From the NCBI RefSeq assembly GCF_023502235.1, contig NZ_JAMFLY010000001.1:310001-374000 (forward strand): DNA of 64,000 nucleotides, given 5' to 3'. This DNA is from Flagellimonas myxillae (GTDB taxonomy: Bacteria; Bacteroidota; Bacteroidia; Flavobacteriales; Flavobacteriaceae). The translations under genes were made by a program, and so were the position numbers. Of this stretch, positions 25,515 through 47,445 are shown piece by piece; within the stretch, counting starts at the first letter, position 1, and each line of letters opens with the position of its first letter. The notes beneath the pieces were generated by a model. That model was not told where the DNA came from. It did no database searches and was given only the letters and a program-made list of their open reading frames with translations.

Positions 25515-25542
25515 AAAAAATAGGTGCTTTGTTGGGTTTGAT

Positions 25543-25550
25543 TATCTTTG
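25543..25550 (+). promoter_or_regulatory. -7 element TATCTTTG for the DUF1599 gene
   Basis: Matches TAnnTTTG, 60 bp before the DUF1599 start in the divergent gap with folP. No TTG lies at 19-base spacing. Confidence 0.3.
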
Positions 25551-25609
25551 GCAAGGTGCTATTGTGCGCCTTATGTTTGGACGAAATTTACGCAAATTAG
25601 CAAGAATAG

Positions 25610-26155: not shown

Positions 26156-26179
26156 CAATTCCCAAATCACAACTTATGC

Positions 26180-26533: not shown

Positions 26534-26556
26534 CCCTTTTTTCCATCTAATTCTAA

Positions 26557-26617
26557 ATTTGGAATTTGGAATTTGGAGCTTGGAATTTGGAATTTGGAGC
26601 TTGGGGCTTGGAATTTG
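26557..26617 (+). repeat. tandem repeat of GGAATTTGG / GGAGCTT units
   Basis: Two exact 21-bp copies (26561-26581 and 26582-26602), each made of two GGAATTTGG-type units plus GGAGCTT, followed by a partial copy. It lies directly after the interrupted IVP-like gene. Related CCAAATTCC-like sequence appears before that gene (about 26143-26170). Confidence 0.8.
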
Positions 26618-26648
26618 CCCATAGAATGGAATTATACTTTAAAGAAAT

Positions 26649-27746: not shown

Positions 27747-27834
27747 TGACCAATGACCAATTATCAATAAACAATTATCAATTAGCTATACCTAACAACT
27801 GAAAACTAATAACCGATAACTAAAAACCACTACT
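27747..27834 (+). repeat. degenerate AT-rich repeat before tpiA
   Basis: Short gap made of imperfect copies of CAATTATCAATAAA and ACTAATAACCGATAACTAAA. No gene or clear promoter can be read in it. Confidence 0.5.
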
Positions 27835-28584: not shown

Positions 28585-28592
28585 TACCAATT

Positions 28593-29423: not shown

Positions 29424-29443
29424 GTAGTACTAATTCCAAATGT

Positions 29444-29719
29444 ATGGGAATCAAGGAAAAGGAATCAGAGGAGCTATTACTGGAAGAGAAGGTGATCAAG
29501 CAAAGCGAGATTGTCTTGTTCAATGACGATGTGAATACCTTTGACCACGTTATTGAGACCTTGATTGCTGTCTGCGACCATACCCCTGAACAAGCCGAGC
29601 AATGTTCCCTCATTGTGCATTATAATGGAAAATGTACCGTAAAAACAGGCGAGTACAACGAATTAAAACCAAGATGCACCAAATTGCTTCAAGCTGGGTT
29701 GAGCGCGGAAATTATCTAA
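29444..29719 (+). CDS. clpS: ATP-dependent Clp protease adaptor ClpS
   Basis: Delivers N-degron substrates to ClpAP-type proteases. The 91-aa reading from the ATG at 29444 (MGIKEKESEELLLEE) contains the core IVLFNDDVNTFDHVIETL, the ClpS N-degron pocket, and the C-terminal helix and strand with EYNELKPRCTKLLQAGLSAE. The frame opens earlier at a TTG inside prmA, but the extra residues are not family-like. Confidence 0.93.
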   Translation: MGIKEKESEELLLEEKVIKQSEIVLFNDDVNTFDHVIETLIAVCDHTPEQAEQCSLIVHYNGKCTVKTGEYNELKPRCTKLLQAGLSAEII

Positions 29720-29873
29720 ATTCCTAATTGTACTAACGCAGTCATAATCGGATTTTAATGCTTGTTGAAATATCACGAATTCTTTACATATCAACCATTG
29801 ACCACCACCGTACTATATCTTAATTTTACCAACACAGACCAATTTATCGAACCAATAATCCGCTGGACCTGAA

Positions 29874-30479
29874 ATGGGCGAATTTTTTAAGGCAGAATTA
29901 AAAGACCGTTTCTTGGAATATGCCCTAGAGCGACGAGATTATTTTGAAGTCCGGGTATTGTATGATGAGTTTTTGCGGCCCAATTACAGTCTGGCTTTTG
30001 TGGAAAAGTTGATTCGTGAGATTGAAGAATACGATTCAGGCTTATTGGATGTCATGGCTGGCAATGGGGTGGAATGGTTCATGTTGGCCTCCACACCCAA
30101 AACACAGGATTTTCTTCACGAGGGGGGATTTATGGAAATGCATGTGATGGAAGAGGAGAAGTGGGACACCTTTTTGGACCAACTCTCCGGGCATAGAAAA
30201 CTGACCAAAGACGAAAAACAACTTTTAAAGGAAAACTCCCCCGAACTTAAACGGGAAAAAAAACTATTGATTTCCCTGATTTCGGCAGTGGTCATAAGCT
30301 TTTTATTTACCCTTTACAGTCTTATAAAGGGGGCATTCCTTGAACCCGAATATGTACCTGCGGACGAGTTTGAAAGAAAAATGGAAGCTTTACGTTCCCA
30401 GTATTCAGAGGAAAACCAACGGTTGGAAGCAGCACTGGAACAGGCAAAGACCACAATCGATTCCCTGTCAGGAAACTGA
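29874..30479 (+). CDS. hypothetical protein with one membrane helix and coiled coil
   Basis: A 201-aa protein not assigned to any family. Residues 1-130 are soluble and acidic (FLEYALERRDYFEVRVLYDE, HVMEEEKWDTFLDQLSG). One helix (LLISLISAVVISFLFTLYSL) lies near 145-164, followed by a short charged, heptad-like tail (DEFERKMEALRSQYSEENQ, LEAALEQAKTTIDSL). It is probably anchored by that helix with a coiled coil on one side. The 153 bp before it hold no other gene. Confidence 0.65.
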   Translation: MGEFFKAELKDRFLEYALERRDYFEVRVLYDEFLRPNYSLAFVEKLIREIEEYDSGLLDVMAGNGVEWFMLASTPKTQDFLHEGGFMEMHVMEEEKWDTFLDQLSGHRKLTKDEKQLLKENSPELKREKKLLISLISAVVISFLFTLYSLIKGAFLEPEYVPADEFERKMEALRSQYSEENQRLEAALEQAKTTIDSLSGN

Positions 30480-33062: not shown

Positions 33063-33701
33063 TCAATAATCCAGTGCAAAAACATCCATCACCTCCTCAT
33101 AAGTCATTTTTTGAAGTGCTTTTTTGGAATAACCCGAATTTTTACCAATTAAAGTGCCTTGAATTATGACGTATTTAAAGGTGTATTCAGCAATCGTAAA
33201 AGATTGCAAATTTCCTGGCGTTGATCCTTGGACGGGTGTCCAAAAATAATGTAATCTAATATTGCCCACATTTGATTCGTGAACAATTTGCGTCTCATAG
33301 TCGGAACCAAATGCTGTAAATTTAAAGGGCAATGAATACCAGCCGTTTGATCCCCTCCTAAAGTAGACCAAAATCAATCCGTTTTCGTTAATATCTTCGT
33401 CGATTTCAGGGATACTCAAGTCCACATAGCGCGTGAACCAGGATGTAGAGGATGCTCCACCTTCTCCCGTATTAAAGGTGTAGCTGGCATTCCAAAGCCA
33501 ATCTGCATTGGCTAAATCAACTGTTCCTGTTCGGACGTTGGCATTACCGTCCACACCGTCTTGCCCCGCAGCTCCTTGTTCTCCTTGTGGTCCTTGTGGG
33601 CCAGGAGCTCCGTCTTGTCCATCTTCCGGAGAACAAGCAGCAAGACCAATTAACAAGATTGTGAGGAAGGTTGATTGTGTAGTTTTCAATAAAAACTTCA
33701 T
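33063..33701 (-). CDS. collagen-like lipoprotein
   Basis: A 212-aa lipoprotein (Cys23 in GLAACSPED) whose residues 27-50 are Gly-X-Y collagen-like triplets (GQDGAPGPQGPQGEQGAAG). The remainder is a beta-rich domain with aromatic strands (WLWNASYTFNTGEGGASS, GLILVYFRRGSNGWYSLPF, IRLHYFWTPVQGSTPG). This architecture is frequent in Flavobacteriaceae with unknown role, probably surface exposed. It is AT-rich and transcribed toward the DUF2750 gene. Confidence 0.78.
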   Translation of the reverse strand: MKFLLKTTQSTFLTILLIGLAACSPEDGQDGAPGPQGPQGEQGAAGQDGVDGNANVRTGTVDLANADWLWNASYTFNTGEGGASSTSWFTRYVDLSIPEIDEDINENGLILVYFRRGSNGWYSLPFKFTAFGSDYETQIVHESNVGNIRLHYFWTPVQGSTPGNLQSFTIAEYTFKYVIIQGTLIGKNSGYSKKALQKMTYEEVMDVFALDY

Positions 33702-34117: not shown

Positions 34118-34957
34118 ATGAAAATTTATAAGTTAGGAACAACCGCATTTATAGATAACGAAGGCCAATATCACAGAAAGGAAATTGTTAATTGGACAAC
34201 TTTTCTTAATCGGGATGGACTTTACCAATCCCTTATCAATGAAATTTCGAATTGGGAAGAGACCGATGGTTCTTTTTTATCGGAAGATCGTTTTGATGCC
34301 CCAATGGGGAACCAGGAAATTTGGGCAGCGGGAGTTACTTACGAACGTAGTAAAGCAGCACGGATGGATGAAGCCAAGGAATCTGGAGGCGCTGTTTTTT
34401 ATGATATGGTGTATGATGCGGAAAGGCCGGAGCTGTTCTTCAAGGCAACCTCACAACGATGTGTGGGTTCTGGGGATGAGGTCTATATACGAAAAGATTC
34501 CACTTGGAATGTTCCCGAACCTGAACTCACCTTGCTGATTAGTTCCAACGGGTCTATTGAAGGATATACGGCCGGTAACGATATGAGCTCAAGAAGTATA
34601 GAAGGAGAAAATCCCTTGTATTTGCCCCAGGCAAAGGTATATGAGAAGTGCGCGGCGATTGGCCCATGTATCTATGTGCCCAAAGAACCCCTTCCCGAAA
34701 CTACCAAAATTCATATTTGCATAAAAAGAAGGGCCTCGGAGATGTATAATGAAGATGTTGCCATATCAAAGATCAAGCGGGAGTTTAAAGAATTAATATC
34801 TTTTCTATTCAGAGAATGTGATTTTCCACAGGGTGTCTTTTTAATGACAGGAACTTGTTTGGTACCTCCTGATGATTTTACCCTGGAAATTGGGGATGAG
34901 ATAACCATTAACATTGACGGGATTGGTACTTTGACCAATCATGTTGGTTGTAAATAA
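34118..34957 (+). CDS. fumarylacetoacetate hydrolase family protein (KdaD-like sugar-acid dehydratase candidate)
   Basis: A 279-aa soluble enzyme of the FAH superfamily. Visible are EIWAAGVTYERSKAARMDEA, VYDAERPELFFKATSQRCVG, the metal ligands around VPEPELTLLISSNGSIEGYT and AGNDMSSRSIEGENPLYLPQ, and GVFLMTGTCLVPPDDFTLE. Length and layout resemble 2-keto-3-deoxy-sugar-acid dehydratases such as KdaD. Beside sulfatases, conversion of a 2-keto-3-deoxy acid derived from the glycan is likely, but this is inference. It is the first gene of the rightward arm, 37 bp ahead of the first sulfatase. Confidence 0.82.
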   Translation: MKIYKLGTTAFIDNEGQYHRKEIVNWTTFLNRDGLYQSLINEISNWEETDGSFLSEDRFDAPMGNQEIWAAGVTYERSKAARMDEAKESGGAVFYDMVYDAERPELFFKATSQRCVGSGDEVYIRKDSTWNVPEPELTLLISSNGSIEGYTAGNDMSSRSIEGENPLYLPQAKVYEKCAAIGPCIYVPKEPLPETTKIHICIKRRASEMYNEDVAISKIKREFKELISFLFRECDFPQGVFLMTGTCLVPPDDFTLEIGDEITINIDGIGTLTNHVGCK

Positions 34958-34994
34958 ATAAAATTACCCACAGAGATAGTAGAATTTCCATAAA

Positions 34995-36524
34995 ATGAAA
35001 TTAACACCAAGTTACAAATCAACAGTGCGGTATGCTTTGGTACTCCTATTGTGTACAGGGTTGCTTTCCTGTAACACAAGCTCCAAGGAACAAAAACCAC
35101 CCAATATCGTTTTCTTTTTTGTGGATGACATGGGCTGGCAGGATACCTCTGTTCCTTTTCATACCGAAGTGACCCAACTGAACAAACAATACCATACCCC
35201 AAATATGGAACAACTGGCAAATGAGGGCATGAAGTTTACCCAAGCCTATGCTTCGGCTGTTTGTTCGCCATCGCGAATTAGTCTTATGACCGGGATGAAC
35301 GCTGCAAGGCATCGGGTCACCAACTGGACCTTGTTCCCTGATAAAACCACAGATTCCAATCACGATAAAGTGGTAGCTCCAGCCTGGAACGTCAATGGAC
35401 TTAGTGCCCAACCAGGAATAAATAAAACGGTTTATGCCAATACGCTACCACAGTTACTGCAAAAGGCGGGATACAAAACAATTCATGCCGGTAAAGCCCA
35501 TTTTGGGGCAAAGGATACCCCAGGGGAAAGTCCTTTAAATCTTGGGTTTGATGTGAACATAGCGGGGCATGCTGCCGGAGGACCCGGGAGTTATTTGGGG
35601 AAATACAATTTTAGCGGTGCTTGGAGAAATGCAATGCGCGTTTGGGATGTCCCGGGACTGGAAAAGTATCATGGACAAGATATTTTTCTAACTGAGGCCC
35701 TGACCATGGAAGCCAACGAAGCAGTCAATCAAGCTGTGGCGGAAGACAAGCCATTTTATCTGTATATGTCCCATTACGCCATTCATGCACCTTGGGAAAA
35801 AGACGACCGTTTTTACCAAAAGTATATCGATGCAGGCCTGAATGAATGGGAGGCCACCTATGCAGCAATGATAGAAGGCATGGACAAATCCTTGGGAGAT
35901 ATTAGGGCAAATCTAAAACGATTGGGGGTTTCCGAAAATACCATTATCGTCTTTATGTCGGATAACGGGTCCCCTAAACAAGCCCCCCGAAACCTACCGC
36001 TACGAGGACATAAACTTACACCCTACGAAGGTGGGGTTAGGGTTCCCCTTCTGGTTAATTGGCCGGGGGTGACCAAAGCCGCCTCAATCAATGACCAATA
36101 CCTCATTATTGAAGATATTTTCCCAACCTTTTTGGAACTGGCGGGATTGTATGAAGAAGCCAAATTGAGTTCGGATGGTATCAGTTTTTTGCCTTTGCTT
36201 TCTGAAATGGGAGCGTATCCAGAGGAACGGCCTATCTACTGGCATTTTCCTAATACCTATGACCAACCCCCCTATAGTGCCGTACGAAAAGGGCCATGGA
36301 AATTGATATACCATCATATTGATAGAAAAATAGAACTTTTCAATCTTGATGAAGATATAGGTGAAACTACAAATTTGGCCGAGGAAAACAGCGCGAAAAC
36401 ATTCGAATTGGCTCAGTTGCTTTCTGACCATTTAGTAACTGTTGAGGCCCAAATGCCCTTGGACAAATCCACAGAAAATCCTGTTGAATATCCGAACGAA
36501 ATAACCAAAAACCATAAAAAATGA
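34995..36524 (+). CDS. sulfatase (type I, CSPSR), lipoprotein
   Basis: A 509-aa formylglycine-dependent sulfatase. The lipobox is at Cys26 (LLSCNTS), the metal-binding start is FFVDDMGWQD, and C90-S-P-S-R94 in AVCSPSRISLMTG is the canonical site where Cys becomes formylglycine. The second metal site VFMSDNGSPKQAPRN and RGHKLTPYEGGVRVP are intact, and the C-terminal subdomain ends near 509. It would desulfate a glycan at the cell surface or in the periplasm. The substrate is unknown. It overlaps the next sulfatase by 4 bp (ATGA). Confidence 0.93.
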   Translation: MKLTPSYKSTVRYALVLLLCTGLLSCNTSSKEQKPPNIVFFFVDDMGWQDTSVPFHTEVTQLNKQYHTPNMEQLANEGMKFTQAYASAVCSPSRISLMTGMNAARHRVTNWTLFPDKTTDSNHDKVVAPAWNVNGLSAQPGINKTVYANTLPQLLQKAGYKTIHAGKAHFGAKDTPGESPLNLGFDVNIAGHAAGGPGSYLGKYNFSGAWRNAMRVWDVPGLEKYHGQDIFLTEALTMEANEAVNQAVAEDKPFYLYMSHYAIHAPWEKDDRFYQKYIDAGLNEWEATYAAMIEGMDKSLGDIRANLKRLGVSENTIIVFMSDNGSPKQAPRNLPLRGHKLTPYEGGVRVPLLVNWPGVTKAASINDQYLIIEDIFPTFLELAGLYEEAKLSSDGISFLPLLSEMGAYPEERPIYWHFPNTYDQPPYSAVRKGPWKLIYHHIDRKIELFNLDEDIGETTNLAEENSAKTFELAQLLSDHLVTVEAQMPLDKSTENPVEYPNEITKNHKK

Positions 36525-38050
36525 TTTACAAAAAAATTGCGAGTCTTCTTATTGCAGCATTGTTGTTGGGAGCTTGCCAAGAGAAATCAAAAGAGGAAAA
36601 AGAAGCTCCCAATATTCTCTTTCTTTTTGCTGACGATTATACTTATGAAGCCATTCATGCATTGGGCAATAGTGTGATTGAAACTCCAAATCTGGACCGT
36701 CTTGTTAGTGAGGGCACCACCTTTACCCACGCTTATAACATGGGTGGTTGGAACGGGGCAATATGCGTTGCCTCCAGGGCCATGATTATTTCAGGCAGTT
36801 ACATTTGGAATGCACATGGCACCACCACCAAATGGAGAGAAAAAGATTCCACTGCCCTAAGAAACACATGGGGTCGCTTAATGGCGTCGCAGGGTTACAA
36901 TACCTATATGACAGGGAAATGGCACGTAAATGCTCCCGCCGATTATGTTTTTGATACGGCAAGGCACATTCGACCAGGGATGCCAGACGATCTAAGAAGT
37001 CAAGCAAACTGGAAGGAGATACGCCAAGCTTATAAAGAAGGTAAGGATGTGAAGCCTATAATGCCTCCGGCTTATTTTAGACCCGTTGATGAAAATGATA
37101 CATTATGGTCTCCTTCCGACCCCAAACACAAAGGTTTTTGGGAAGGCGGTAAACATTGGAGCGAGGTCATCAAAGATGATGCGCTTGATTATTTGGAAGA
37201 CGCAACCCAAAAGGAAGACCCCTTCTTTATGTACTTGGCATTTAACGCACCACATGATCCAAGACAGTCGCCCCAGTCATTCTTGGATAAATATGATATC
37301 GAAAACATTCCAGTACCCGAAAATTGGCTGCCCGTGTACCCATACCGGGACGCCATGAACAGTAACTTTCATATGAGGGATGAAGCCTTGGCACCTTTTC
37401 CAAGAACACCCTTCGCGATCAAGACCCATTTGAAGGAATATTATGCGATCATAACACATTTGGATGAGCAAGTGGGTAAGATTCTGGATGCCTTGGAAGC
37501 TTCGGGGAAATTGGATAACACCTATATTTTCTTCACAGGAGATCACGGTTTATCTGTTGGACATCATGGGCTTTTGGGCAAGCAAAGCATGTTTGACCAT
37601 AGTATACGGGTGCCCTTAATGGTGGTAGGTCCGGATATCCCCAAAGGTCAAAAGATCAATACAGATGTTTACCTCCAGGATATTATGGCGACCAGTCTCG
37701 AGTTGGCCGATATTGAAAAACCAACATATGTGGAGTTTAATAGCCTGTTGCCTTTGGCAAAGGGGGAAACCACCAATGGGCATTTGCAGGATGGTGTTTA
37801 CGGGGCCTTTGAAAAGGAATCCCAACGGATGATCCGTAAAGATGGATTCAAGCTTATAGTATATCCCAAAATCGACAAGGTCTTGTTGTTCAATATGGAA
37901 GAAGATCCAATGGAAATGCACGATTTGGCCGGGATGCCTGAAAATCAAAGCCGCGTAAAATCCTTGTTTTCTGATTTGATGGCATTGCAAAAGAAAATGA
38001 ACGATCCGCTGGATCTGAATGAACTTTATGCAAACCTAAATCAGCTGTAG
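36521..38050 (+). CDS. sulfatase (type I, CVASR), lipoprotein
   Basis: A second 509-aa sulfatase, lipid-anchored at Cys19 (LLGACQE). FLFADDYTYE is the first metal motif. The formylglycine site is C82-V-A-S-R86 (AICVASRAMIISGSY), with Ala in place of the common Pro; this form occurs in some S1 subfamilies. FFTGDHGLSVGHHGLLGKQ is the second metal site. Its sequence differs clearly from the first sulfatase, so the two probably act on different linkages of one glycan. Translationally coupled to it by an ATGA overlap. Confidence 0.92.
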   Translation: MIYKKIASLLIAALLLGACQEKSKEEKEAPNILFLFADDYTYEAIHALGNSVIETPNLDRLVSEGTTFTHAYNMGGWNGAICVASRAMIISGSYIWNAHGTTTKWREKDSTALRNTWGRLMASQGYNTYMTGKWHVNAPADYVFDTARHIRPGMPDDLRSQANWKEIRQAYKEGKDVKPIMPPAYFRPVDENDTLWSPSDPKHKGFWEGGKHWSEVIKDDALDYLEDATQKEDPFFMYLAFNAPHDPRQSPQSFLDKYDIENIPVPENWLPVYPYRDAMNSNFHMRDEALAPFPRTPFAIKTHLKEYYAIITHLDEQVGKILDALEASGKLDNTYIFFTGDHGLSVGHHGLLGKQSMFDHSIRVPLMVVGPDIPKGQKINTDVYLQDIMATSLELADIEKPTYVEFNSLLPLAKGETTNGHLQDGVYGAFEKESQRMIRKDGFKLIVYPKIDKVLLFNMEEDPMEMHDLAGMPENQSRVKSLFSDLMALQKKMNDPLDLNELYANLNQL

Positions 38051-38228
38051 GAGACTGGATTTTGCTTTTTTGTGCTCGTGTGGGGTTTTGACTGCATGGA
38101 TAGGAAACAAGGTCGATTTCTTTGACAAGAATGCATAAATTAGTTCCATCAATTAGCTTGTAGGATAACAGGCATTTAACCGAGGTATTTGGAATAGGGG
38201 AATAATCGGGTCAAACGATGGAATTGAA

Positions 38229-39104
38229 ATGAAACCACAACTTGTAGATAGAACGAACCGTCTTAACAGAACACTATCTGAGCAACTACATTCCTTTCCT
38301 TACTTTCTAAAAGTTTGGCACTATCACCCGGAGATTGAGCTAGTCGCTGTTAAAAAGAGTACTGGAGTCATCTTTTTGGGCAATGATATGGAACGGTTTC
38401 AACCGGGCGATATTTTTTTGATTGGCAGCAATGTACCCCATATGCTATTGAATGACCCAAAATACTTTAAACCCTCCTCCAAACTAAAGGCAGAGTCCCA
38501 GGTGATTCATTTTGATAAGGCCTTACTTGAAAGTGACATTTTTAAGTTTCCCGAAGCCTCTGAAATGGTATCTTTTTTGGACGATGCACGGTACACGATA
38601 AAATTTGATTCAGCTATTCACGGAGTAGTTGAAAAGAAAGTTAGGAAAATGTTCGAAGTGGGGAATTTTGAGAAAATTATACTCCTGCTGCAATTGATGA
38701 TTTTTTTGGGGACGGATGCGAAATATAAGGTGATAAGCAAGGGAGATGTCGCCAAGACCTCCATGCAGGCAGGAACGAGTCATAATATGGATAAGGTATA
38801 TGACTATATCTATTGTAATTTTAGGGAATCCGTGGAACTGGATAAGTTGGTGGACATAGCATGCATGAACAAATCCTCGTTTTGCCGGTATTTTAAACGG
38901 ATGAACAATAAAACGGTCTCAAGGTTTGTCAATGAGCTGCGTATCGGATATGCCTGCCAACTGTTACAGGAAAACAAGTTTAGTATCACCACAATTTGCT
39001 ACGAAAGTGGGTTTAACAACATTTCCAACTTCAATAGACAGTTCAGGAATATAATGGACCTCTCGCCCTCAGATTATGTTAAAAAACTCAATTTTGGAAA
39101 GTAA
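38229..39104 (+). CDS. AraC family transcriptional regulator
   Basis: A 291-aa regulator with an N-terminal cupin-type sensing domain (FPYFLKVWHYHPEIELVAVK, FQPGDIFLIGSNVPHML) and a C-terminal double helix-turn-helix (VDIACMNKSSFCRYFKRMNN, ITTICYESGFNNISNFNRQF, SPSDYVKKLNF). It follows the sulfatases after 178 bp and probably controls this locus in response to a breakdown product. Confidence 0.9.
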   Translation: MKPQLVDRTNRLNRTLSEQLHSFPYFLKVWHYHPEIELVAVKKSTGVIFLGNDMERFQPGDIFLIGSNVPHMLLNDPKYFKPSSKLKAESQVIHFDKALLESDIFKFPEASEMVSFLDDARYTIKFDSAIHGVVEKKVRKMFEVGNFEKIILLLQLMIFLGTDAKYKVISKGDVAKTSMQAGTSHNMDKVYDYIYCNFRESVELDKLVDIACMNKSSFCRYFKRMNNKTVSRFVNELRIGYACQLLQENKFSITTICYESGFNNISNFNRQFRNIMDLSPSDYVKKLNFGK

Positions 39105-39184
39105 AATTTCCAATTATGAATCCTATCTCGAAAGCTATCGATAACCGGAGAAGGGATTGACAAGCATATTTAGATGCTATATGA

Positions 39185-40369
39185 TCAATACAACTTTATA
39201 TTAATAAATTGTTGCCTGTAATCGCTTAGATTTTCTAAGGAACCAAGGCTTTCCATATCACCGTTTTTCTCTATCCAATGGCGAACTTTGTCCGTCCCGT
39301 TAATGACATCTATCGGATTTTGTGTGTAACTGTATTCGTACGGGGGATTTTTCCATTGGAAATCATTACCCAACAGATGATACAGCTCACGCATAATAAA
39401 TTGCCCGACTCGCCAAGGCCTAAACGTTGACCGATGGGTCACATGGATTTGAAACCCGCCACAAACGGTATTTCCATGTTTTTGAAAAGTAGGAAGAAAG
39501 GTTATTGGCCTTAAAACGAAACCTTTGAGTTTCGATGTCTTTATTTTGGAGGCAAAATGGTTTTTATACAAGGAAAAGGGTTCAATTTTTGGATGCCCTA
39601 CAATTTCCAGAGGTTGGGAGGTTCCTCTACCTTCACTAAGTTGGGTTCCTTCAAAAAAAACGGTTGCAGGAAAAGTAATTGTGCTTTCGGCCCTCGCAAG
39701 GTTTGGGGAGGGCAAAAGCCACGGAAGACCCGTATCTTCGAAGAACATTTCTCTTTTCCAACCTTGCATTTTAATGATTTTGAGCATTGCTTTTTCCTCA
39801 GCCCAAATTTTTTGATGCATTAGCGCGACTTCCCCGATGGTCATCCCATGGCGAATGGGCAAGGGATGTAGGCCAACAAATGATTCAAATTCAGGTTCGA
39901 CCAAATTCCCTTCGATATCAATTCCGTTTATAGGATTGGGACGATCCAAAACAACGACCTGAATATCTTTATCGGCACATTTGTCCAACAATAGGGTAAG
40001 GGTGTATATGTAGGTATATATCCTACATCCCACATCTTGTAAATCCACAAAAATATGGTCTATATCCGCTAACATTTCATCGGTAGGTATGCGCGTTTCG
40101 GAATACAGGGAATACACCGGTATATTGAAGTGTGGATGTACCACATGATCGGTTTCAACCATATTGTCCTGGACATCTGTGGAAAAACCATGCTGGGGAC
40201 CAAATAGTTTAATAAATCTTGGACCGAACATTTCCTGAAATCGAATCGTAGCATGCGTTAGCGTACCGTCCACGGAGGCATTGTGACAAAGTAAGGCCAC
40301 ATTTCCTGTGAATTCTTTTTGAAGGGCTTTATCCTTTGTTAAAACATCGAGGCCAGTTAAGACTTTCAT
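39185..40369 (-). CDS. DUF1343 / NamZ-type exo-beta-N-acetylmuramidase-like protein
   Basis: A 394-aa protein of the DUF1343 family, which includes NamZ (exo-lytic N-acetylmuramidase, GH171). Motifs are LFGPQHGFSTDVQDN, VFVDLQDVGCRIYTYIYTL-type sequence, VLDRPNPINGIDIEGN, RHGMTIGEVALM and PSPNLARAESTITFPATV followed by GTQLSEGRGTSQPLE. No signal peptide is present (MKVLTGLDVLTKDK), although secreted family members are common, so a cytoplasmic role on imported saccharide is suggested. It is the last gene of the leftward arm, downstream of susD, and faces the AraC gene. Confidence 0.87.
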   Translation of the reverse strand: MKVLTGLDVLTKDKALQKEFTGNVALLCHNASVDGTLTHATIRFQEMFGPRFIKLFGPQHGFSTDVQDNMVETDHVVHPHFNIPVYSLYSETRIPTDEMLADIDHIFVDLQDVGCRIYTYIYTLTLLLDKCADKDIQVVVLDRPNPINGIDIEGNLVEPEFESFVGLHPLPIRHGMTIGEVALMHQKIWAEEKAMLKIIKMQGWKREMFFEDTGLPWLLPSPNLARAESTITFPATVFFEGTQLSEGRGTSQPLEIVGHPKIEPFSLYKNHFASKIKTSKLKGFVLRPITFLPTFQKHGNTVCGGFQIHVTHRSTFRPWRVGQFIMRELYHLLGNDFQWKNPPYEYSYTQNPIDVINGTDKVRHWIEKNGDMESLGSLENLSDYRQQFINIKLY

Positions 40370-40507
40370 TTAAATATGTTTTTCGTTAGAAATTAATCAG
40401 TACAGAAAAAAGATCATTCTGTTTGGCGCTATAGGATGATTGATTGTATAGGGACAACTATGCTGTTGCCCCCATACAATAACAACTAACCAACTCAAAA
40501 CTTGCCT

Positions 40508-41854
40508 TTATATCGAAGGGTTTGCGGGTGTATTTGGGTTATTTTCCCGTTCTATCGTGGGATACGGATAAAAATTCCTATTCCTTTGATTGGTGGTGTT
40601 AGCCTCCAAGGGAACCACAAAATCTGGATAGAATCGCCTATTGTCTCCCCATCTCAAACCCGTTAGGAACAGTTCAATCGACCTATTCCTATAAATCTCA
40701 TCCAAAACATCGGCCTGACTTGCAGCATCGCCCGTCCAAACCGGGAGATTTGCGTTCACCCCAAGCGGATCATCATTTTTTTGCCTCACCAAATCGATTT
40801 GAGCCACTGCATCGTCCAGTTGATTTTGTCTAGCATAGGCTTCAGCTTTGTTCAACATCATTTCACCAGGAAGGTAAATGGGTATCGAAGCAGTGTTTGT
40901 AGCCGCAAACCCCAACATTTCACTAATGGCCTGCCCCCCGGCATCCGCATTGGCGAAACCAGCATCGGCGCCTAGATAAAAGGCGATTCGTCCGTCTCCT
41001 ACATCCGGAACCAAGGGCCCGAGTAGACCAAAGTTGGTCTGTGGCTTTAGGTCGGTGGAATTAACGGTTCTGTTCCATAAGGGATTTTGGTTATTTGCGT
41101 CATAAATCCACATGGAATTCGTAGCATCACTATCATTTAAAACAGCGTCTGCGGCAGCAATTGCCTCCGCATAATTCCCTGCCAACAAATGATATCTTGA
41201 AAGGAAGGCATTGATGGTTTTTGGCAAACTAATCTCCGTCCACAAAACTGTCGAAGCAAACTCCTCCGACATGGGTGTCCCGGCCAATTCATCCCGAGCA
41301 CTCTGTAAAAGTGAGATGCACTCCGCCAATACGGCGGCCCGATCACTAAACGGGGCATCCCCATCAATCGAGTTGTTGATGGGAGCTTGCTCGAACATCT
41401 GAATCATGGACCCCAAAGAGATAGCCTTGAACAAATTGCCATAAGCCAAAAGACCACTTCGAGTACCGGCGGTAAGATCCACGGTATTGGCCCCCTCAAT
41501 CAAGGATTCGGCCATGCCTTTTGCCTTCAAAAGATTTACCCATGGATTGGTGATACCCCCACTTTCGGGTGGTAGTTCGGCACCTCCTTTGGCCAATTCG
41601 TTGATATTCAAAAAGGTATTGGTCACCCCAAGTTCCCTAGTCGTAATTCCTGGTGCTTCAATTACCTGTCTCAGTGCTGTCACCGAATAGTATTGTCTAA
41701 TACCCGTTGCCAGGGCGAAAAGTCCATCCTTCGTTTTTAAAACAACATCTTCGGTGGGATTGTTGGGGTTTTCAAACTCAGTTTCACAAGCGATAAATAA
41801 TCCGCTGATCATAAGGAAAACACCTATTATGCTATATATTTTAATATTTTTCAT
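40508..41854 (-). CDS. SusD/RagB family outer-membrane lipoprotein
   Basis: Surface glycan- or nutrient-binding partner of the SusC channel. The 448-aa product has a lipobox at Cys23 (GLFIACETEFENPNNP), helical TPR-like content and the C-terminal signature RSIELFLTGLRWGDNRRFYP common in SusD proteins. It begins 11 bp after the susC stop. At 448 aa it is at the short end of the family, similar to RagB members tied to small oligomers. Confidence 0.92.
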   Translation of the reverse strand: MKNIKIYSIIGVFLMISGLFIACETEFENPNNPTEDVVLKTKDGLFALATGIRQYYSVTALRQVIEAPGITTRELGVTNTFLNINELAKGGAELPPESGGITNPWVNLLKAKGMAESLIEGANTVDLTAGTRSGLLAYGNLFKAISLGSMIQMFEQAPINNSIDGDAPFSDRAAVLAECISLLQSARDELAGTPMSEEFASTVLWTEISLPKTINAFLSRYHLLAGNYAEAIAAADAVLNDSDATNSMWIYDANNQNPLWNRTVNSTDLKPQTNFGLLGPLVPDVGDGRIAFYLGADAGFANADAGGQAISEMLGFAATNTASIPIYLPGEMMLNKAEAYARQNQLDDAVAQIDLVRQKNDDPLGVNANLPVWTGDAASQADVLDEIYRNRSIELFLTGLRWGDNRRFYPDFVVPLEANTTNQRNRNFYPYPTIERENNPNTPANPSI

Positions 41855-41865
41855 CTTGATTTTTT

Positions 41866-44800
41866 TTAGAATGTAGCCGTTACACCAACTTTGATTACTC
41901 CGGGAATGGGAATAAGTCCCATTACCCCTCCTCTGGACCCATTGCTTTGTGCATCAATGTTCACTTCTGGGTCATAACTGGAAAAATTGTCGATGGAAAA
42001 CAGGTTTCGACCTGTTAAAAAGAACTTGAAACTATCGACACCTTTAAACGGTTCCCTGAGCAGATAGCTAAAGGATATCTCCCGCAACTTAATGTAGGAG
42101 CCATCTTCTATATAGGATTCGGCTATGCCAAAATTGGCGCTTCCTGTTCCCCGAACCTGGTCTCCCCGAAGTTCGCTGGCAGTTGCCGGACCGCCTCCAA
42201 ATCGATAGAACATTCGTTGGTCCCAGCTCAAAATGTCAACACCTTGAACCGCATCCAATTGCATTCTAAATGAAAAATCCTTGTATGTGAGTTCGTTTAT
42301 TACGGAGGCTATAAAATCGGGATTTGGATCACCGATAACCTTACTTAAATTGGCGCCAGTCGGTTGTCCCGAGGCATCTCTTTCCGGCACCGGATTACCG
42401 TTGGCATCAAAACTACCCTTCTCCCTTTGCGGAAGGCCTGCAGGGGTAAGAAGTAAACTTCCATCTGGGTTCCTGGCATAATATCCCTGGTAAAAAACAC
42501 CTAAAGGTTGACCATTTTTGGCAACGGAAAATCCGAAGTTCCCAATCCCGAACTGTTCCCCAGCAATATTGTTCACCTCGTTTCTATTTGAGGAATACGT
42601 CCCGGTAACCGACCAGTTAAAATTATTGGTTTGGACAGGGGTAGCGGTGATCATGGCCTCAAAACCTTTGTTGGTCATCGTTCCAATGTTTTCTACCCTG
42701 GAGCCTGCTCCGGTTGAGGGCGATAAAGTCCGTGCCAACAACAAATCTTCAATGTCTTGGGAATAATAGGTAAGTTCAACACCCAAACGGTTATCGAACA
42801 GGGCCATATCAACCCCAAATTCCAATTCGGTTTGTCTTTCGGGTTTTAAATCCGGATTTCCCAATTGCGTAGGGGCGATCAAACCAGAATTACCATCAAT
42901 GCTTATGGCGGCGTAATTGGACAACCTGTCAAAAGGGCCAATTGCCGTGAGGTTTCCTGCTTGTCCCCAAGCAGCCCTCAATTTAAAGCTGTTGATGGCA
43001 TCTCCAAGATTATCCTTCCAAAAATCCTCTTCGGACATGAGGTATGAAGCACTGGCCTTTGGATAAAATTGGTTCCTTTCATCGGCTCCAAACACAGAAG
43101 ACCCATCCAATCGGATTGCACCGGTGAGGAAAAGTTTGTTGTCATACCCGAAAGTTTGCTGCAAAAATCCACCCCAAAATGTTCGTTCGCTCCTGTTTTC
43201 ATTTGTGGTGATGGAAGCCGCTCCATTTGTGGTTCTAACACCCAAAGCCAATCCAGTACCTGAAATGGACCGAAGGATGTTTTCATCGGCCTGCCATGAA
43301 AACCCGGCTGTTGTAGTTGACTTTATGTCCTCAGAGAGCATTTTATTGTAGGAGGCATTTAGATCACTGTTCAACAATTTGGTGCTGATGGTAGTTGTAC
43401 TAGCGCTGCCCAATGGAACCGTGGTAGTACCTATTGGCACATATCTTGTTCCCCTGGATTCCGCATTGTCGTACCCTAGGGTGTAGTTTATCTTTAAATC
43501 GTTGGTTGGGGATAAGTTGATCTGAAGATCACTGATCGTTCTATTGTTCTCCTGCTGAAAATCAAATGTCTCAATGTACTCGAGAATATTTGGGTAAAAG
43601 GTCATTTGAGGATAGTTGCCATTTTCATCAGGAACGGGATTGATCGTATTGTTCGTAAATAGGATCGTCTGTAACACTCCAAATCCATAACCCCCATTGG
43701 GAACATCGTTGCTATGACTTGTTGAAAAGTACATTCCGGCAGAAGCGGAGGCCCAATCATTGATTTTTTGGTTGACCCTTATCCGTCCACCTTCCCTTTC
43801 GTAGTCCGTGGATTTCATGATTCCTTCATTCTTCAAATAAGAAATGGAAGCGAAATAATCGGTATTTTCCGATCCTCCCGATATGGATACATAGTTGTCC
43901 GTTCCCATCGAATTCTGAAACACCATATCTTGGTAATCATATCTGGTGACGGACTCTGTATCGAGGACGGTGATATCCGATGAAGTCCAGTCCAAGGGCA
44001 CTTGGTTAAAATCCCGTTTCTTTCTTAAGAAATTCATGTTGGCACTTGTTGATACCGTGATGACAGGCTTTCCAGAACGTCCCTTTTTGGTAAAAATCTG
44101 CACGACCCCGTTACTTGCCCGGGAACCATAAATGGCCGCTGCGGCAGCACCTTTGATTACCTCAATTCTGTCGATGTCCTGGGGATTGATATCCGAGAGC
44201 CTGTTCTGGACCACACTGGTGACGTTCAAAACATTTGTGGAATTGTTGTTTACGATTACCCCATCGATTATGTACAGCGGGTCCGAACTTCCATTTACTG
44301 TACTTGCACTACGCAATCTTACGCTAATTCCCCCGGCAGGATCCCCCGAGTTTTGCGATACTTGGATACCGGCCAACTTACCGGACAGAGCTGCAGAAAT
44401 ATCAACCGCTCCCGATTGTGCAATTTCTGTTCCTTCAACACTTGAAATGGTATTTCCAATTTGTTTTTTCGCAGTCAGTGCGCCGACCCCGGTAATCACC
44501 ACCTGGTCAAGGCCCAAAATATCAGTGGCCATAACCACATTATTTTCAATCGTTGTCTGACTTCCGAAGGTTACCGAGACTTCTTGTGTGGTAAAGCCCA
44601 ATGAGCGAAAAATAAACACATAATCTCCGGGATCCAGGTCTGCCTGCAAAACATAGTTTCCTGAAAAATCTGTGATCACGCCTTGGTTGGTGCCTTCTAT
44701 TTGAACCGTAACGCCTGGAAGTGGGTCTCCAATTTCATCGGTGACCGTCCCTGAGACGACATAAGTTTCCTGAATATCGACCTTATTAACCGGGATTTCC

Positions 44801-45183
44801 TTTTTAGGGACGTCCGATTTGTTCAGGGTAAGCACAATCTGCCGATCGATTATTTTATACTTGATTGTGCCATCGGGAAAGAGTTTTCTAAGAACCTTTT
44901 GTATTTCTTGTTTTTTGACCTGGATGCTGACTTTTCGCTCCAAATCCAATTCCTCCTTACTATAGAAGAATTTAAACTCTGTTTTGGACTCTATTTCCTC
45001 AATAATTTTGGAAATAGTGACATTTTCAACATCTAAATCAATCTTGGTTTTTTGAGCATACCCCGATGACGCTTGAAGCTGAAAAAGGGTCACCATAAAA
45101 AACAAGAGTGAAAATTTCATTTTTAGATCAAGTTCCGGAAAGATGCGGGAACACCTTGCCAATGAGTTCATTAGTTTTTTCAT
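41866..45183 (-). CDS. SusC/RagA family TonB-dependent receptor with STN domain
   Basis: An 1105-aa outer-membrane importer. After a pre-signal extension (MKKLMNSLARCSRIFPELDL) and a signal peptide ending near SGYAQ come an STN domain (DVENVTISKIIEEIESKTEF, about 47-118), a carboxypeptidase-regulatory-like domain (VSGTVTDEIGDPLPGVTVQI, 133-215), the plug (VVITGVGALTAKKQIGNTIS; SDPLYIIDGVIV; IEVIKGAAAAAIYGSRASNG) and the barrel to a terminal VGVTATF. The STN domain is the signal-transfer part that contacts FecR, matching the adjacent fecR and sigma genes. A partial copy of its 5' coding sequence lies in its leader. Confidence 0.95.
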   Translation of the reverse strand: MKKLMNSLARCSRIFPELDLKMKFSLLFFMVTLFQLQASSGYAQKTKIDLDVENVTISKIIEEIESKTEFKFFYSKEELDLERKVSIQVKKQEIQKVLRKLFPDGTIKYKIIDRQIVLTLNKSDVPKKEIPVNKVDIQETYVVSGTVTDEIGDPLPGVTVQIEGTNQGVITDFSGNYVLQADLDPGDYVFIFRSLGFTTQEVSVTFGSQTTIENNVVMATDILGLDQVVITGVGALTAKKQIGNTISSVEGTEIAQSGAVDISAALSGKLAGIQVSQNSGDPAGGISVRLRSASTVNGSSDPLYIIDGVIVNNNSTNVLNVTSVVQNRLSDINPQDIDRIEVIKGAAAAAIYGSRASNGVVQIFTKKGRSGKPVITVSTSANMNFLRKKRDFNQVPLDWTSSDITVLDTESVTRYDYQDMVFQNSMGTDNYVSISGGSENTDYFASISYLKNEGIMKSTDYEREGGRIRVNQKINDWASASAGMYFSTSHSNDVPNGGYGFGVLQTILFTNNTINPVPDENGNYPQMTFYPNILEYIETFDFQQENNRTISDLQINLSPTNDLKINYTLGYDNAESRGTRYVPIGTTTVPLGSASTTTISTKLLNSDLNASYNKMLSEDIKSTTTAGFSWQADENILRSISGTGLALGVRTTNGAASITTNENRSERTFWGGFLQQTFGYDNKLFLTGAIRLDGSSVFGADERNQFYPKASASYLMSEEDFWKDNLGDAINSFKLRAAWGQAGNLTAIGPFDRLSNYAAISIDGNSGLIAPTQLGNPDLKPERQTELEFGVDMALFDNRLGVELTYYSQDIEDLLLARTLSPSTGAGSRVENIGTMTNKGFEAMITATPVQTNNFNWSVTGTYSSNRNEVNNIAGEQFGIGNFGFSVAKNGQPLGVFYQGYYARNPDGSLLLTPAGLPQREKGSFDANGNPVPERDASGQPTGANLSKVIGDPNPDFIASVINELTYKDFSFRMQLDAVQGVDILSWDQRMFYRFGGGPATASELRGDQVRGTGSANFGIAESYIEDGSYIKLREISFSYLLREPFKGVDSFKFFLTGRNLFSIDNFSSYDPEVNIDAQSNGSRGGVMGLIPIPGVIKVGVTATF

Positions 45184-45231
45184 AATTTTGTTTTGATTTT
45201 TGTTGATTCGTACGACTTAGATCAAATCTGT

Positions 45232-45266
45232 AATCGGAAAGTGCGGGAACACTTTCCGATTTTTTA
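45232..45266. promoter_or_regulatory. intercistronic hairpin in the susC leader
   Basis: Perfect 12-base arms AATCGGAAAGTG (45232-45243) and CACTTTCCGATT (45250-45261) with a CGGGAA loop, between fecR and susC. The T run lies on the opposite strand from the operon, so it is more likely a processing, stabilising or leader structure than a terminator of fecR. Confidence 0.5.
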
Positions 45267-45371
45267 TTTTCGGTGGTGTTCAATTCATATAGCTTTTGTT
45301 TTTAGTTGCCTCCACAAACCAGGATTTTTTTTTCAAAATCCCTATGGTGATTCAGCTCGGTTATATAGTTT

Positions 45372-46586
45372 TTAATTTTCCATATTTACTATGGTTATGG
45401 TGTCATTGTCCACGGAATAGTCAAATGCCGTGTGTTCCTGAAAGACCCTTAGTATTTGATCTAAGGATTCTTTGGTGAAGGTTCCGGTGAACCGCTTTCC
45501 GTTCAGTTGATAAAACTGGTTGTCGATGGTTACATTAAAATGTCTTTCCAGTTCCTTTAAGATCAATTCAAAACGATCGTCTACGAAAAAGAGTTTGCCT
45601 TGGGTCCAAGCGGTAAACTTTGCCACGTTCACTTGGTCCACGGCTATAGTCCCCTCTTTAAACACGGCACGCTCGCCTATTTCCAAAACAATGGGCTTTT
45701 GGCCATCCGAATTGTTCGATTTGTAAACCCCTACACTACCTTCCACCAATACGGTAGAAGTGTTGTTTTCATTCTTATAACTGGAGACATTGAATTCTGT
45801 TCCGTAAACACTGGTATTCATATCGTCAGTAATTACGGTGAAGGCACGCTCCTTGTCTTTTTCCACAGAAAAATAGGCCTCCCCATCCAAATAGACTTCC
45901 CTGGGTTTCCCACTTAAAAAGGTTACGGGGTATCGTAGTTTTGATCCTGAATTAAGGAAGACATGAGTTCCATCCGACAATATCAGCTCAAACTTTTTAC
46001 CATAGGGGATGGACAACTGGTTATAGGAAATATTCCCAGGTTCCGCCTCATTCTCACCGTGGTACAGCAAGGTATTTTCCTTCTGGTTTACTATTTGATG
46101 TCCATCGGCATTGGTAATGGTGCCTGTGGATGTTTCGTCCAATACCTTGATTGTTCCATCCTCTAATTCCAATGTTATTTGCGGGCTGTCCATTACAACT
46201 GAAGATTCCTTTGCAGTGAAAGCGCCTGTTTGGAATATAATGTAGGCCGTACCGATCAAACCGATAAAAAGGGCAGCAAACTTTAGCAGCTGCTTTCTTT
46301 TTAAACCATTTGACTTTCCGGGTATATAGATGTTGTTTCCAACTTCCTTTCTCCGTTGAATAATATCTTGCCACATGGTGTTGAAATCGGAATCGGAAAG
46401 TTCATCAACATCAAAGTCCATAAGTCGGATAAAACGGGCTGCATTTTGCACGACCTCCCTTTTGTCCGGATTTGAGGTAATCCAGTTTTCCCAAAAGTTT
46501 TTGGTCATATCGTCTGGGTTCAAGACCCATTTTTGAAAATATTCATCCTTGATAAAATCTTCTTCCGTGTAGTGGGTGTACTTCAT
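45372..46586 (-). CDS. FecR family anti-sigma factor
   Basis: Membrane anti-sigma/sigma regulator of 404 aa from the ATG at 46586 (MKYTHYTEEDFIKDEYFQKW). The cytoplasmic N-terminus binds sigma; one helix (LLKFAALFIGLIGTAYIIFQ) spans the inner membrane; the periplasmic part has the FecR domain (LSIPYGKKFELILSDGTHVF, LNSGSKLRYPVTF, REVYLDGEAYFSVEKD) and the C-terminal DUF4974-like domain (FFVDDRFELILKELERHFNV). An earlier in-frame ATG (46640) would add 18 residues. It relays the state of the SusC STN domain to the ECF sigma encoded upstream. Confidence 0.92.
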   Translation of the reverse strand: MKYTHYTEEDFIKDEYFQKWVLNPDDMTKNFWENWITSNPDKREVVQNAARFIRLMDFDVDELSDSDFNTMWQDIIQRRKEVGNNIYIPGKSNGLKRKQLLKFAALFIGLIGTAYIIFQTGAFTAKESSVVMDSPQITLELEDGTIKVLDETSTGTITNADGHQIVNQKENTLLYHGENEAEPGNISYNQLSIPYGKKFELILSDGTHVFLNSGSKLRYPVTFLSGKPREVYLDGEAYFSVEKDKERAFTVITDDMNTSVYGTEFNVSSYKNENNTSTVLVEGSVGVYKSNNSDGQKPIVLEIGERAVFKEGTIAVDQVNVAKFTAWTQGKLFFVDDRFELILKELERHFNVTIDNQFYQLNGKRFTGTFTKESLDQILRVFQEHTAFDYSVDNDTITIVNMEN

Positions 46587-46688
46587 CCTGCTTATGCCGA
46601 GATCAATTGTGTTGTTATCTACTAAGAGGGAGAATTTCAATTTTTACCCCAAAATATTTTGCCTTTTTTCAAAAAATAAAATTTGACT

Positions 46689-46710
46689 CTGTTAATCATT
46701 TGATTAACAG
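46689..46710. promoter_or_regulatory. perfect palindrome between sigma and fecR genes
   Basis: Ten-base arms CTGTTAATCA and TGATTAACAG with a TT centre, between the ECF sigma stop and the fecR start. It may be an operator, or a weak terminator since loose T runs follow leftward. Confidence 0.45.
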
Positions 46711-46785
46711 GATATTATTTTGCTATCCTAAAAGAGAAAAGAAGGCGGGTAAGCCTAAAAAAGATGGGAATTCAATTTGAAGTCG

Positions 46786-47445
46786 TTACGGAAGCAAAAG
46801 GGGAATGGTAAACAAGGGAGCTGCTCCCATATATTTTCTTAGGAAACCAATGGTCCTTCCCATTAGTTTATAGGTGCCTTTTTTGCTCAGGGACATAATT
46901 TCGGCAATTTCAATATAACTCAAAAAGGCATAGTATTTAAGGTAGATTATTTCCTTTTGACGATCTGTAAGTTTGTTTATGGCTTCTTTGAGCTTTACTT
47001 GCTGTTGGTCGAATTCTTGTTTTTCAATCAAGCTGTGTTCCAAGGAATGTGACGCGGTGTTTGCGGTCATAAAAAACTTTGCACCATGGACTGTTTTTCT
47101 ACCTAAAACAGATTCTGAAATCAACTTTCTTCTTAGGGATTTAAAGAGGTAGGATTTTATGGATTTAACTTTGCCTAGTCGATGTTTGGAATCCCATAGT
47201 TCAACAAAGAGGTCTTGAATACAATCTTTGACAAGGTTTTTGTCGTTGACAATCTTCAACCCATAATTATATAGCACAAAGACGTTGTTTCTATAGATTG
47301 AGGCATAGGCCGCCTCATTACCGGATTGGAATTCGCTCCAAAGCTGGGAGTCTTCTATTTTAGTCCCACCAATTGGGTTCGAGGCCAGCTTGTTTTTGGT
47401 GTCCTCGGTAAAAGTTTTGGGTTGATGGATTGGTTTGATTGACAA
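46786..47445 (-). CDS. ECF RNA polymerase sigma factor
   Basis: A 219-aa sigma-70 family factor of the ECF group. Region 2 is LWSEFQSGNEAAYASIYRNN with LVKDCIQDLFVELW, and region 4 is KLTDRQKEIIYLKYYAFLSY with IEIAEIMSLSKKGTYKLMGR. The neighbouring fecR, susC and susD genes make a cell-surface-signalling unit in which this sigma drives the susCD operon when the ligand binds. It heads the leftward arm. Confidence 0.93.
   Translation of the reverse strand: MSIKPIHQPKTFTEDTKNKLASNPIGGTKIEDSQLWSEFQSGNEAAYASIYRNNVFVLYNYGLKIVNDKNLVKDCIQDLFVELWDSKHRLGKVKSIKSYLFKSLRRKLISESVLGRKTVHGAKFFMTANTASHSLEHSLIEKQEFDQQQVKLKEAINKLTDRQKEIIYLKYYAFLSYIEIAEIMSLSKKGTYKLMGRTIGFLRKYMGAAPLFTIPLLLP

Follow-up and report, generated by a model that had tools for sequence, protein, structure and literature searches.

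We analyzed a 64,000-nucleotide stretch of the Flagellimonas myxillae genome (NCBI RefSeq assembly GCF_023502235.1, contig NZ_JAMFLY010000001.1, positions 310,001 to 374,000 of the forward strand), hereafter the window, in which two gene arms face each other tail to tail between positions 34118 and 47445. An earlier note, made from the sequence alone, had read these arms as one converging and possibly undescribed pathway for a small sulfated or amino-sugar-containing substrate. The nine genes that it named are all present, and our open reading frame (ORF) and profile searches reproduced their coordinates and strands. Comparison with related genomes indicates, in our judgment with good probability, that the arms are two independent operons converging by chance: a left arm for the uptake of murein fragments and a right arm that is a detached piece of a sulfated-fucan cluster. 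The transporter of the left arm additionally carries a signaling extension that appears to have been acquired from another system. The gene content, its conservation, the unlinked state of the arms elsewhere, and the mosaic structure of SusC are observed; substrates, signaling, and the direction of acquisition are inferred. The features are as follows.

34118..34957, + strand: FAH-superfamily enzyme, predicted 2-keto-3-deoxypentonate dehydratase, right arm (Pfam FAA_hydrolase, 60.6 bits, cut-off 23.9)
34995..36524, + strand: sulfatase 1, S1 formylglycine type, S1_16-like (PF00884, 167 bits)
36521..38050, + strand: sulfatase 2, S1 formylglycine type (PF00884, 166 bits; SGSH_C)
38229..39104, + strand: AraC-type regulator (HTH_18, 65 bits)
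39185..40369, - strand: NamZ (formerly DUF1343), predicted cytosolic type (NamZ_N, 247 bits; NamZ_C, 131 bits)
40508..41854, - strand: SusD-like protein (PF07980, 40.6 bits, cut-off 23.1)
41866..45183, - strand: SusC-like TonB-dependent transporter (TIGR04056, 579 bits, cut-off 368)
44773..45183, - strand: STN-bearing extension at the N terminus of SusC, residues 1-137, putative graft (identity to other STN regions)
45372..46640, likely start 46586, - strand: FecR anti-sigma factor (PF04773 and PF16344; 56.5 bits, cut-off 24)
46786..47445, - strand: ECF sigma factor (TIGR02937, 66.6 bits, cut-off 42.9)

Domains were called by Pfam and NCBIfam profile searches, with Pfam run on ten proteins (the nine above and a DUF885 protein). 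NamZ is the only glycosidase-type protein among these ten, in agreement with the earlier remark that the locus holds no polysaccharide lyase and no other classic glycoside hydrolase (GH). The arms meet where the AraC gene ends, at 39104, and NamZ stops, at 39185. Within the right arm, the FAH gene is separated from sulfatase 1 by 37 bp and the two sulfatase genes overlap by 4 bp, a tight spacing that suggests a single transcript. The FecR gene was called from a TTG start; its two closest orthologs (L167, L168) begin at the corresponding ATG, and the called start is probably about 18 codons too early. Across the whole genome (3.94 Mb), PF00884 matches number 26, counting separately two that belong to a single open frame.

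Separate linkage of the two arms

The distribution of the arms in the genus, which we treat as Flagellimonas/Allomuricauda, provides the principal evidence that they are separate. The FAH enzyme is found at E 1e-30 or better in 13 of 71 genus genomes and NamZ of the window type (at least 65% identity) in 12 of 60, the window's own genome being included in both counts and G460 and G461 lying outside the 60 searched for NamZ. Four congeners carry both genes: G416, G421 (Allomuricauda spongiicola), G428 (Flagellimonas algicola), and G436 (Flagellimonas onchidii). In each of the four, FAH and NamZ occupy separate contigs and are at least 56 kb apart, as calculated from distances to contig ends. 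The left operon (ECF-FecR-SusC-SusD-NamZ) is whole in G416 and G428, at 66-88% identity, and the 20-kb stretches read around it there contain no match to sulfatase 1, sulfatase 2, or FAH. A DeoR-type version of the left arm occurs in G421, with a SusC only 42% and a SusD only 38% identical to those of the window. The FAH gene of G416, for its part, has neither sulfatase 1 nor sulfatase 2 in the stretch read around it.

A broader sample of NamZ neighborhoods was obtained by an alignment-based scan of genome contigs, from which we kept the best 80 of 139 relatives: 51 loci mostly from Flavobacteriaceae (L227-L277) and 29 Bacteriovoracia-type records (L278-L306). Some of the 51 derive from genus genomes already used above (e.g., L230, L231, L255), and many end at contig ends; counts of partner genes are lower bounds. 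Three sulfatase queries, applied at E 1e-12, matched at only two of the 51 loci, with best identities of 36% and 27%; the FAH query matched at none. SusC or SusD matches lie upstream of NamZ in at least 35.

Because FAH and NamZ are unlinked in all four congeners that share them, and because the left operon is maintained without right-arm genes in G416 and G428, we consider the arms to be independent. The earlier note had named conserved neighborhoods with unrelated arms as the outcome that would speak against its proposal, and this is the pattern that the genus-level linkage and the NamZ loci display. A further comparison, among 149 genomes of the family, found a strong FAH ortholog (E <1e-80) in 12 others and a strong SusD ortholog (E <1e-70) in six others, with zero overlap. 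This is only suggestive, because about 0.5 overlaps would be expected by chance and zero arises in 60% of draws; we discarded it as proof of independence and relied on genus linkage instead.

Some observations weigh against independence. FAH and NamZ co-occur slightly more often than chance would predict (four genomes versus 1.9 expected of 59, P 0.08). In addition, the nearest relatives of the window ECF and FecR proteins, in G436 (58%), adjoin an FAH-containing fucan-type cluster (L200). This arrangement makes a regulatory link between fucan and this family of switches possible, and it says nothing of the substrates of the window genes. Although these two points, the adjacency of the arms, and an FAH284-type gene near one NamZ locus (L256) could be taken to favor a joint pathway, in which SusCD would import a sulfated amino-sugar or peptidoglycan-like substrate, the sulfatases desulfate it, and NamZ and FAH finish its breakdown, this proposal is already contradicted by the separate contigs, by the near absence of sulfatase matches and absence of FAH matches around NamZ in the 51 loci, and by the recurrence of right-arm genes among fucose-type genes, and we regard it as highly improbable. 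The suggestion of a peptidoglycan-like substrate survives for the left arm alone and is lost for the locus as a whole. Nor does the pathway appear undescribed, as both halves are of kinds already in print: a murein polysaccharide utilization locus (PUL) (PMC10199937) and fucoidan PULs with sulfatases (PMC6315715). Setting the two arms apart removes a false lead and leaves two testable assignments in its place.

The right arm and its probable fucan context

Aligned with the solved enzyme 2q18 (E 5e-53), the FAH-superfamily protein shares the PEPEL and NPLYLPQ stretches, which we take to be those of the active site, and we predict that it acts as a 2-keto-3-deoxypentonate dehydratase. Its best solved relative is an archaeal dehydratase (PMC9795676); the source organism differs, and the same activity in Flagellimonas is a prediction. 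We rejected a fumarylacetoacetase or hydrolase role on the strength of this relationship. A hydrolase of the fucose/rhamnose type is moreover encoded by a separate, tandem FAH gene in two congener loci (L198, L199).

Sulfatase 1 has the motif CSPSR and a lipoprotein-like N terminus (both by eye). Its best solved relatives are 6uss, 7oza, 9s8f, 7oz9, and 9fo1; the last is AMOR_S1_16A by its title, and Trp111 of sulfatase 1 aligns with its Trp79. 7OZA and 7OZ9 have been assigned to S1_16 (PMC11760155). With S1_16 enzymes closest and the conserved Trp kept, sulfatase 1 appears S1_16-like, as judged by its solved relatives. Sulfatase 2 has the motif CVASR and likewise a lipoprotein-like N terminus (both by eye); we rejected any subfamily call for it, as it has no close solved relative. 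Relatives of sulfatase 2 at E 1e-60 or better occur in 79 of 397 family genomes, the window genome included, and the best of the others is 71% identical.

Orthologs of both sulfatases (71-87%) are found in fucan-type clusters of congeners (L197, L198, L199), and one of sulfatase 2 alone (69%) in a fourth (L201). FAH, sulfatase 1, and sulfatase 2 are adjacent in L199 and share a stretch in L197 and L198. Such clusters encode a FucP above its profile cut-off and, below cut-off, fuconolactonase-like, sugar-acid-dehydratase-like, and FAH284 (rhamnonate/fuconate hydrolase-like) proteins. GH95- or GH29-like genes lie in the same 20-kb stretch at seven of the nine congener FAH loci that we read, which come from eight genomes (G411, G415, G433, and G461 were left unread); one GH95 and one GH29 of these loci were confirmed by Pfam. 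In the wider family, L129-L132 and L136/L137 bring together homologs of one or both sulfatases (51-57% identity) and GH95-, GH29-, and fucose-type genes, the gene names having been assigned by similarity and sequence reading.

The rest of the genome offers a complementary picture. The AraC-type regulator, which probably controls the right arm, is 42% identical to the AraC preceding a fuconate-dehydratase-like/FAH284 cluster elsewhere in the genome (L207). The F. algicola cluster has three further sulfatases, whose orthologs here reside at two sites (L212, 82% and 72%; L211, 73%); GH95/GH29-like genes lie at another (L223). Given these related genes at L207, L211, L212, and L223, the right arm may be viewed as a fragment of a fucan system scattered over the genome, and its origin as a piece of a sulfated-fucan cluster is, from the gene neighborhoods, the most likely. 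The sulfatases that are clustered together in F. algicola (L197) are spread over at least three places here, as in a dispersed PUL. We propose that the two surface sulfatases would strip sulfate from fucan oligosaccharides and that the FAH enzyme would dehydrate 2-keto-3-deoxypentonate, perhaps derived from xylose in the fucan, under the regulation of AraC.

The fucoidan PULs described in Wenyingzhuangia fucanilytica combine S1 sulfatases with GH29 and GH95 enzymes (PMC6315715), and the congener orthologs of the right arm lie in clusters of this kind. The window copy differs in consisting of just FAH, AraC, and a pair of sulfatases, neither of which was placed in S1_17 or S1_25. The absence of a fucosidase of its own tells against the fucan assignment: no GH95 or GH29 match was found among the 52 ORFs of the window. 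The right arm also lacks its own transporter, the adjacent SusCD being that of the left arm. Moreover, only four of the nine congener FAH loci have sulfatase 1 or sulfatase 2 in the stretch read.

In an alternative reading, the FAH enzyme belongs to a pentonate (Weimberg-type) pathway, its adjacency to sulfatases is secondary, and the sulfatases alone serve fucan degradation. FAH orthologs do occur outside fucan-type clusters, in a second setting with an IlvD/Edd dehydratase, a GntP permease, and a KGSA-dehydrogenase-like gene (L095, L096, L098, L204, L205) and, in L204 and L205, without sulfatases. The window genome possesses a KGSA-dehydrogenase-like gene of its own at the start of contig C13. 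We nevertheless find this alternative doubtful, though worth keeping in mind, given the association of FAH with both sulfatases in L197, L198, and L199 and with fucosidase-like genes at most congener loci. A role in fucan use remains our preferred reading of the right arm as a whole.

Several further features of these loci deserve mention. The KGSA-dehydrogenase-like gene on C13 (L225, C13:242-1828) lies 241 bases from the contig end, and some of its flanking genes resemble those of the IlvD-GntP-FAH-KGSADH locus L204/L205, so a second FAH gene could hide in the assembly gap. In L198 and L199, the tandem pair of FAH-superfamily genes combines a rhamnonate/fuconate hydrolase type with a pentonate dehydratase type, and L198 additionally contains a KGSA-dehydrogenase-like gene; fucan clusters may burn a pentose too. 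A block of seven genes upstream of the right arm (window 24681-30479) reappears with its order unchanged in G460, next to a fucan-type cluster that contains FAH (L202); this conserved arrangement suggests a favored site for such clusters. A lipoprotein-like gene (by eye) immediately precedes the right arm on the opposite strand (window 33063-33701), and its product has a short collagen-like Gly-X-Y stretch near its N terminus.

A proposed ECF sigma, FecR, and STN switch on the transporter

The left arm possesses the components of a FecIRA-type system, namely, an ECF sigma factor, a FecR, and a TonB-dependent transporter with an STN domain. Counting against this assignment, the STN domain scores 27.8 bits, just below the Pfam cut-off of 28.4; we assigned it from its E value (2e-6) and its homology to other STN regions. 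A similar row of sigma factor, FecR, SusC, and SusD in a xylan PUL of Rhodothermus marinus has been interpreted as trans-envelope signaling (PMC6987092). That PUL carries xylan enzymes, and its locus table lists no NamZ (PMC6987092). We propose that the window genes would likewise signal across the envelope to the ECF sigma factor.

The extension is confined to a small subset of otherwise similar transporters. Seventeen SusC sequences have a body at least 60% identical to that of the window, of which 14 are distinct and informative: L230 was merged with L168 and L244 with L101 (same genomes), the truncated L234 was left out, and L240 was retained with only 1.2 kb of upstream DNA. The STN extension, ECF, and FecR are present together in three of the 14, all Flagellimonas (the window, G416, and G428). 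The remaining 11 have no STN, ECF, or FecR, and their open frames leave at most 71 codons, with no room for the extension; a DeoR gene lies within 3 kb in eight of these 11.

The SusC of the window is a mosaic. Its body is 75-78% identical to STN-less orthologs of other genera, and its residues 1-137 are 52-61% identical to the STN regions of other Flagellimonas SusC proteins (L310-L314, L337) whose bodies are only 26-34% identical to its own (bodies of L310-L314 and L200 being partly covered). Other STN regions of the genus, among the matches listed, are at most 50% identical to that of the window. The accompanying genes follow the extension, with FecR 55-59% identical to the FecRs of the STN-sharing systems and ECF 58% identical where the locus reaches it. 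In a maximum-likelihood tree of 32 SusC sequences, the three with STN form one clade (100/100) nested inside STN-less ones (99/99), and more distant relatives in the tree, at 39-49% identity, are likewise without STN. The tree was rooted at the midpoint; it includes two 5'-truncated sequences that were scored as STN-less (L234 and L249) and one identical pair (L170 and L255).

The simplest reading of these comparisons is that an ECF-FecR-STN cassette was grafted onto a murein transporter within the genus. In its fullest form, to which we assign an even chance, a whole surface-signaling cassette would have been transplanted in Flagellimonas onto a transporter for peptidoglycan fragments, replacing an intracellular, DeoR-type control, such that foreign wall fragments would be sensed outside the cell just as they are imported. 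Substrate binding would be relayed from the STN domain of SusC to FecR, which would then release the ECF sigma factor to activate the operon. Alternatively, STN, ECF, and FecR could be ancestral and have been lost repeatedly in the DeoR-linked lineages, with no graft. Losses are easy, and the midpoint root leaves some latitude for this scenario. We consider it unlikely in view of the strongly supported nesting of the STN clade, the lack of STN in the more distant relatives (with L234 and L249 truncated, as noted), and the fact that the N terminus, FecR, and ECF are far closer to those of otherwise unrelated Flagellimonas systems than the SusC bodies are.

In G436 (L200, L337), a close relative of the presumed donor (ECF-FecR-STN-SusC) adjoins a cluster in which FAH is accompanied by a KGSA-dehydrogenase-like gene and GH95-like pieces. 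We met no STN/ECF/FecR graft in the open-license literature, in which no search was aimed at such grafts. The switch looks like an apparently new element on a locus whose two halves are otherwise of known kinds. If the graft is real, it constitutes a natural experiment in which PUL transporters swap switches: the signaling domains of SusC proteins would be modules exchangeable between PULs, and nature would have provided a test of the way in which STN specificity is inherited.

Probable peptidoglycan uptake by the left arm

Both NamZ domains score well above their curated cut-offs (26.9 for NamZ_N and 25 for NamZ_C), and the protein presumably belongs to GH171, which we equate with the exo-beta-N-acetylmuramidase family of CAZy. 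It is predicted to be of the cytosolic type. An in-frame stop codon stands immediately 5' of the ATG, so an upstream signal peptide cannot have been overlooked. A second DUF1343 gene, encoding a lipoprotein-like N terminus (by eye), is present in the same genome at C1:194856 (L179), and similar genes, 36-42% identical to the window NamZ, occur in 59 of 60 genus genomes. As the lipoprotein-like form is nearly universal in the genus, the window NamZ can be regarded as an accessory, signal-less copy. Two such enzymes, NamZ1 and NamZ2, are reportedly known from Tannerella forsythia.

Genes near NamZ in the 51 loci point to salvage of N-acetylmuramic acid (MurNAc), the process in which MurQ and AnmK function. 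Within 10 kb of NamZ, MurQ and a sodium:solute symporter are each found at 29 or more of the 51 loci, and at least 26 combine MurQ with SusC/D. Other partners include DeoR (at least 25), a GH3-type protein (at least 18), and dipeptide epimerase matches (10, of which the four in L254, L259, L260, and L264 are only 28-29% identical). Among examples checked by profile, MurQ, AnmK, and NagB exceeded NCBIfam cut-offs and the symporter and the GH3-beta-lactamase protein exceeded Pfam cut-offs; for the AmpG-like and dipeptide-epimerase-like proteins, the best profile matches were below cut-off. SusD, whose N terminus is lipoprotein-like by eye, has orthologs (74-86%) that adjoin SusC and NamZ in all five stretches read (L099, L100, L101, L167, L168). 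Two distant relatives of the SusCD pair lie in comparable surroundings, one beside AnmK and a MurQ-like gene (sharing 65% identity with the confirmed MurQ of the window genome) with no NamZ between (L102), the other beside epimerase-like and NagB genes on a contig that ends 0.9 kb past SusD, where a NamZ is possible (L103). These two neighborhoods indicate peptidoglycan for the transporter itself and not just for NamZ. A single MurQ above the family cut-off is encoded in the window genome, at C1:595755, within a salvage cluster (L206) that also comprises AnmK, a NagZ-like GH3, an AmpG-like carrier, GHL10, and NagB-like and DeoR-like proteins.

The operon thus joins adjacent SusC and SusD homologs to a murein-active gene, and uptake of peptidoglycan (MurNAc) fragments is its most likely function on these genomic grounds. 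We propose that SusD binds a MurNAc-containing saccharide at the surface and SusC imports it across the outer membrane with TonB-derived energy, after which an inner-membrane carrier encoded elsewhere, either the genome's own AmpG-like protein or a MurT-like symporter, would carry it inward. The signal-less NamZ would then cleave off MurNAc in the cytosol, and the MurQ, AnmK, NagZ-like GH3, and NagB-like proteins of the separate cluster would finish the salvage. Cell-wall fragments should be a common marine food.

Other features of the left arm fit this function less well. Profile and query searches found no MurQ in the window operon, its SusCD is not beside a symporter, and it has no inner-membrane carrier of its own; no genome search for a MurT-like symporter was made. 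NamZ is solitary in five congeners (L173-L177), present without its SusCD in G436 (L169), and accompanied by neither upstream SusC/D nor nearby MurQ at 13 of the 51 loci, so the link between the enzyme and import is not obligatory. Among the 35 SusC matches, some have just 25-30% identity, which implies that different SusC families partner NamZ. It is also conceivable that the left arm imports another amino-sugar oligosaccharide or glycopeptide, such as chitin-like oligomers of N-acetylglucosamine (GlcNAc), with the activity of NamZ incidental. NagB, DeoR, and the GH3-beta-lactamase protein are compatible with GlcNAc use, and the specificity of SusD cannot be read from sequence. The recurrence of MurQ and AnmK beside SusCD or NamZ of the window type, together with the absence of a chitinase or GH20 from the ten window proteins scanned, renders this improbable in our estimation.

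Related systems are already in print. The genome of a Urechidicola symbiont encodes two susCD pairs with murQ, nagB, ampG, deoR, a sodium co-transporter, a dipeptide epimerase, and GH families 3, 10, 18, and 171, attributed mostly to murein metabolism (PMC10199937). This locus resembles the left arm and its relatives in pairing susCD with GH171. It differs in having deoR instead of the ECF/FecR pair and STN-type SusC found in the window operon, and in grouping functions whose window-genome counterparts (murQ, ampG-like, and nagB-like genes) lie elsewhere (PMC10199937). In the open-license literature we found no other murein locus described with SusCD pairs; this one establishes that the SusCD-NamZ-MurQ type of locus is not new. 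The ampG-murTKQ operon of T. forsythia, described as serving MurNAc and muropeptide scavenging, similarly combines MurQ with MurT, a symporter of the sodium-symporter superfamily (PMC5388701, PMC5790795, PMC7670621, PMC10465942); what is described there is import across the inner membrane, and that description names no SusCD partner. The SusCD-type transporter NanOU of T. forsythia and Bacteroides fragilis is devoted to an amino sugar of the cell surface, but its substrate differs, with sialic acid genes in the place of NamZ (and MurQ) (PMC3969230).

The 29 remaining records among the best 80 of 139 relatives (L278-L306) encode signal-less NamZ proteins of 56-60% identity; 25 are titled Bacteriovoracia or Bdellovibrio type and four only Proteobacteria. 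None of the Bacteroidota partner genes matched alongside NamZ in these loci. The Bacteriovoracia and Bdellovibrio groups prey on bacteria, and the NamZ gene has perhaps been transferred between wall-eating lineages.

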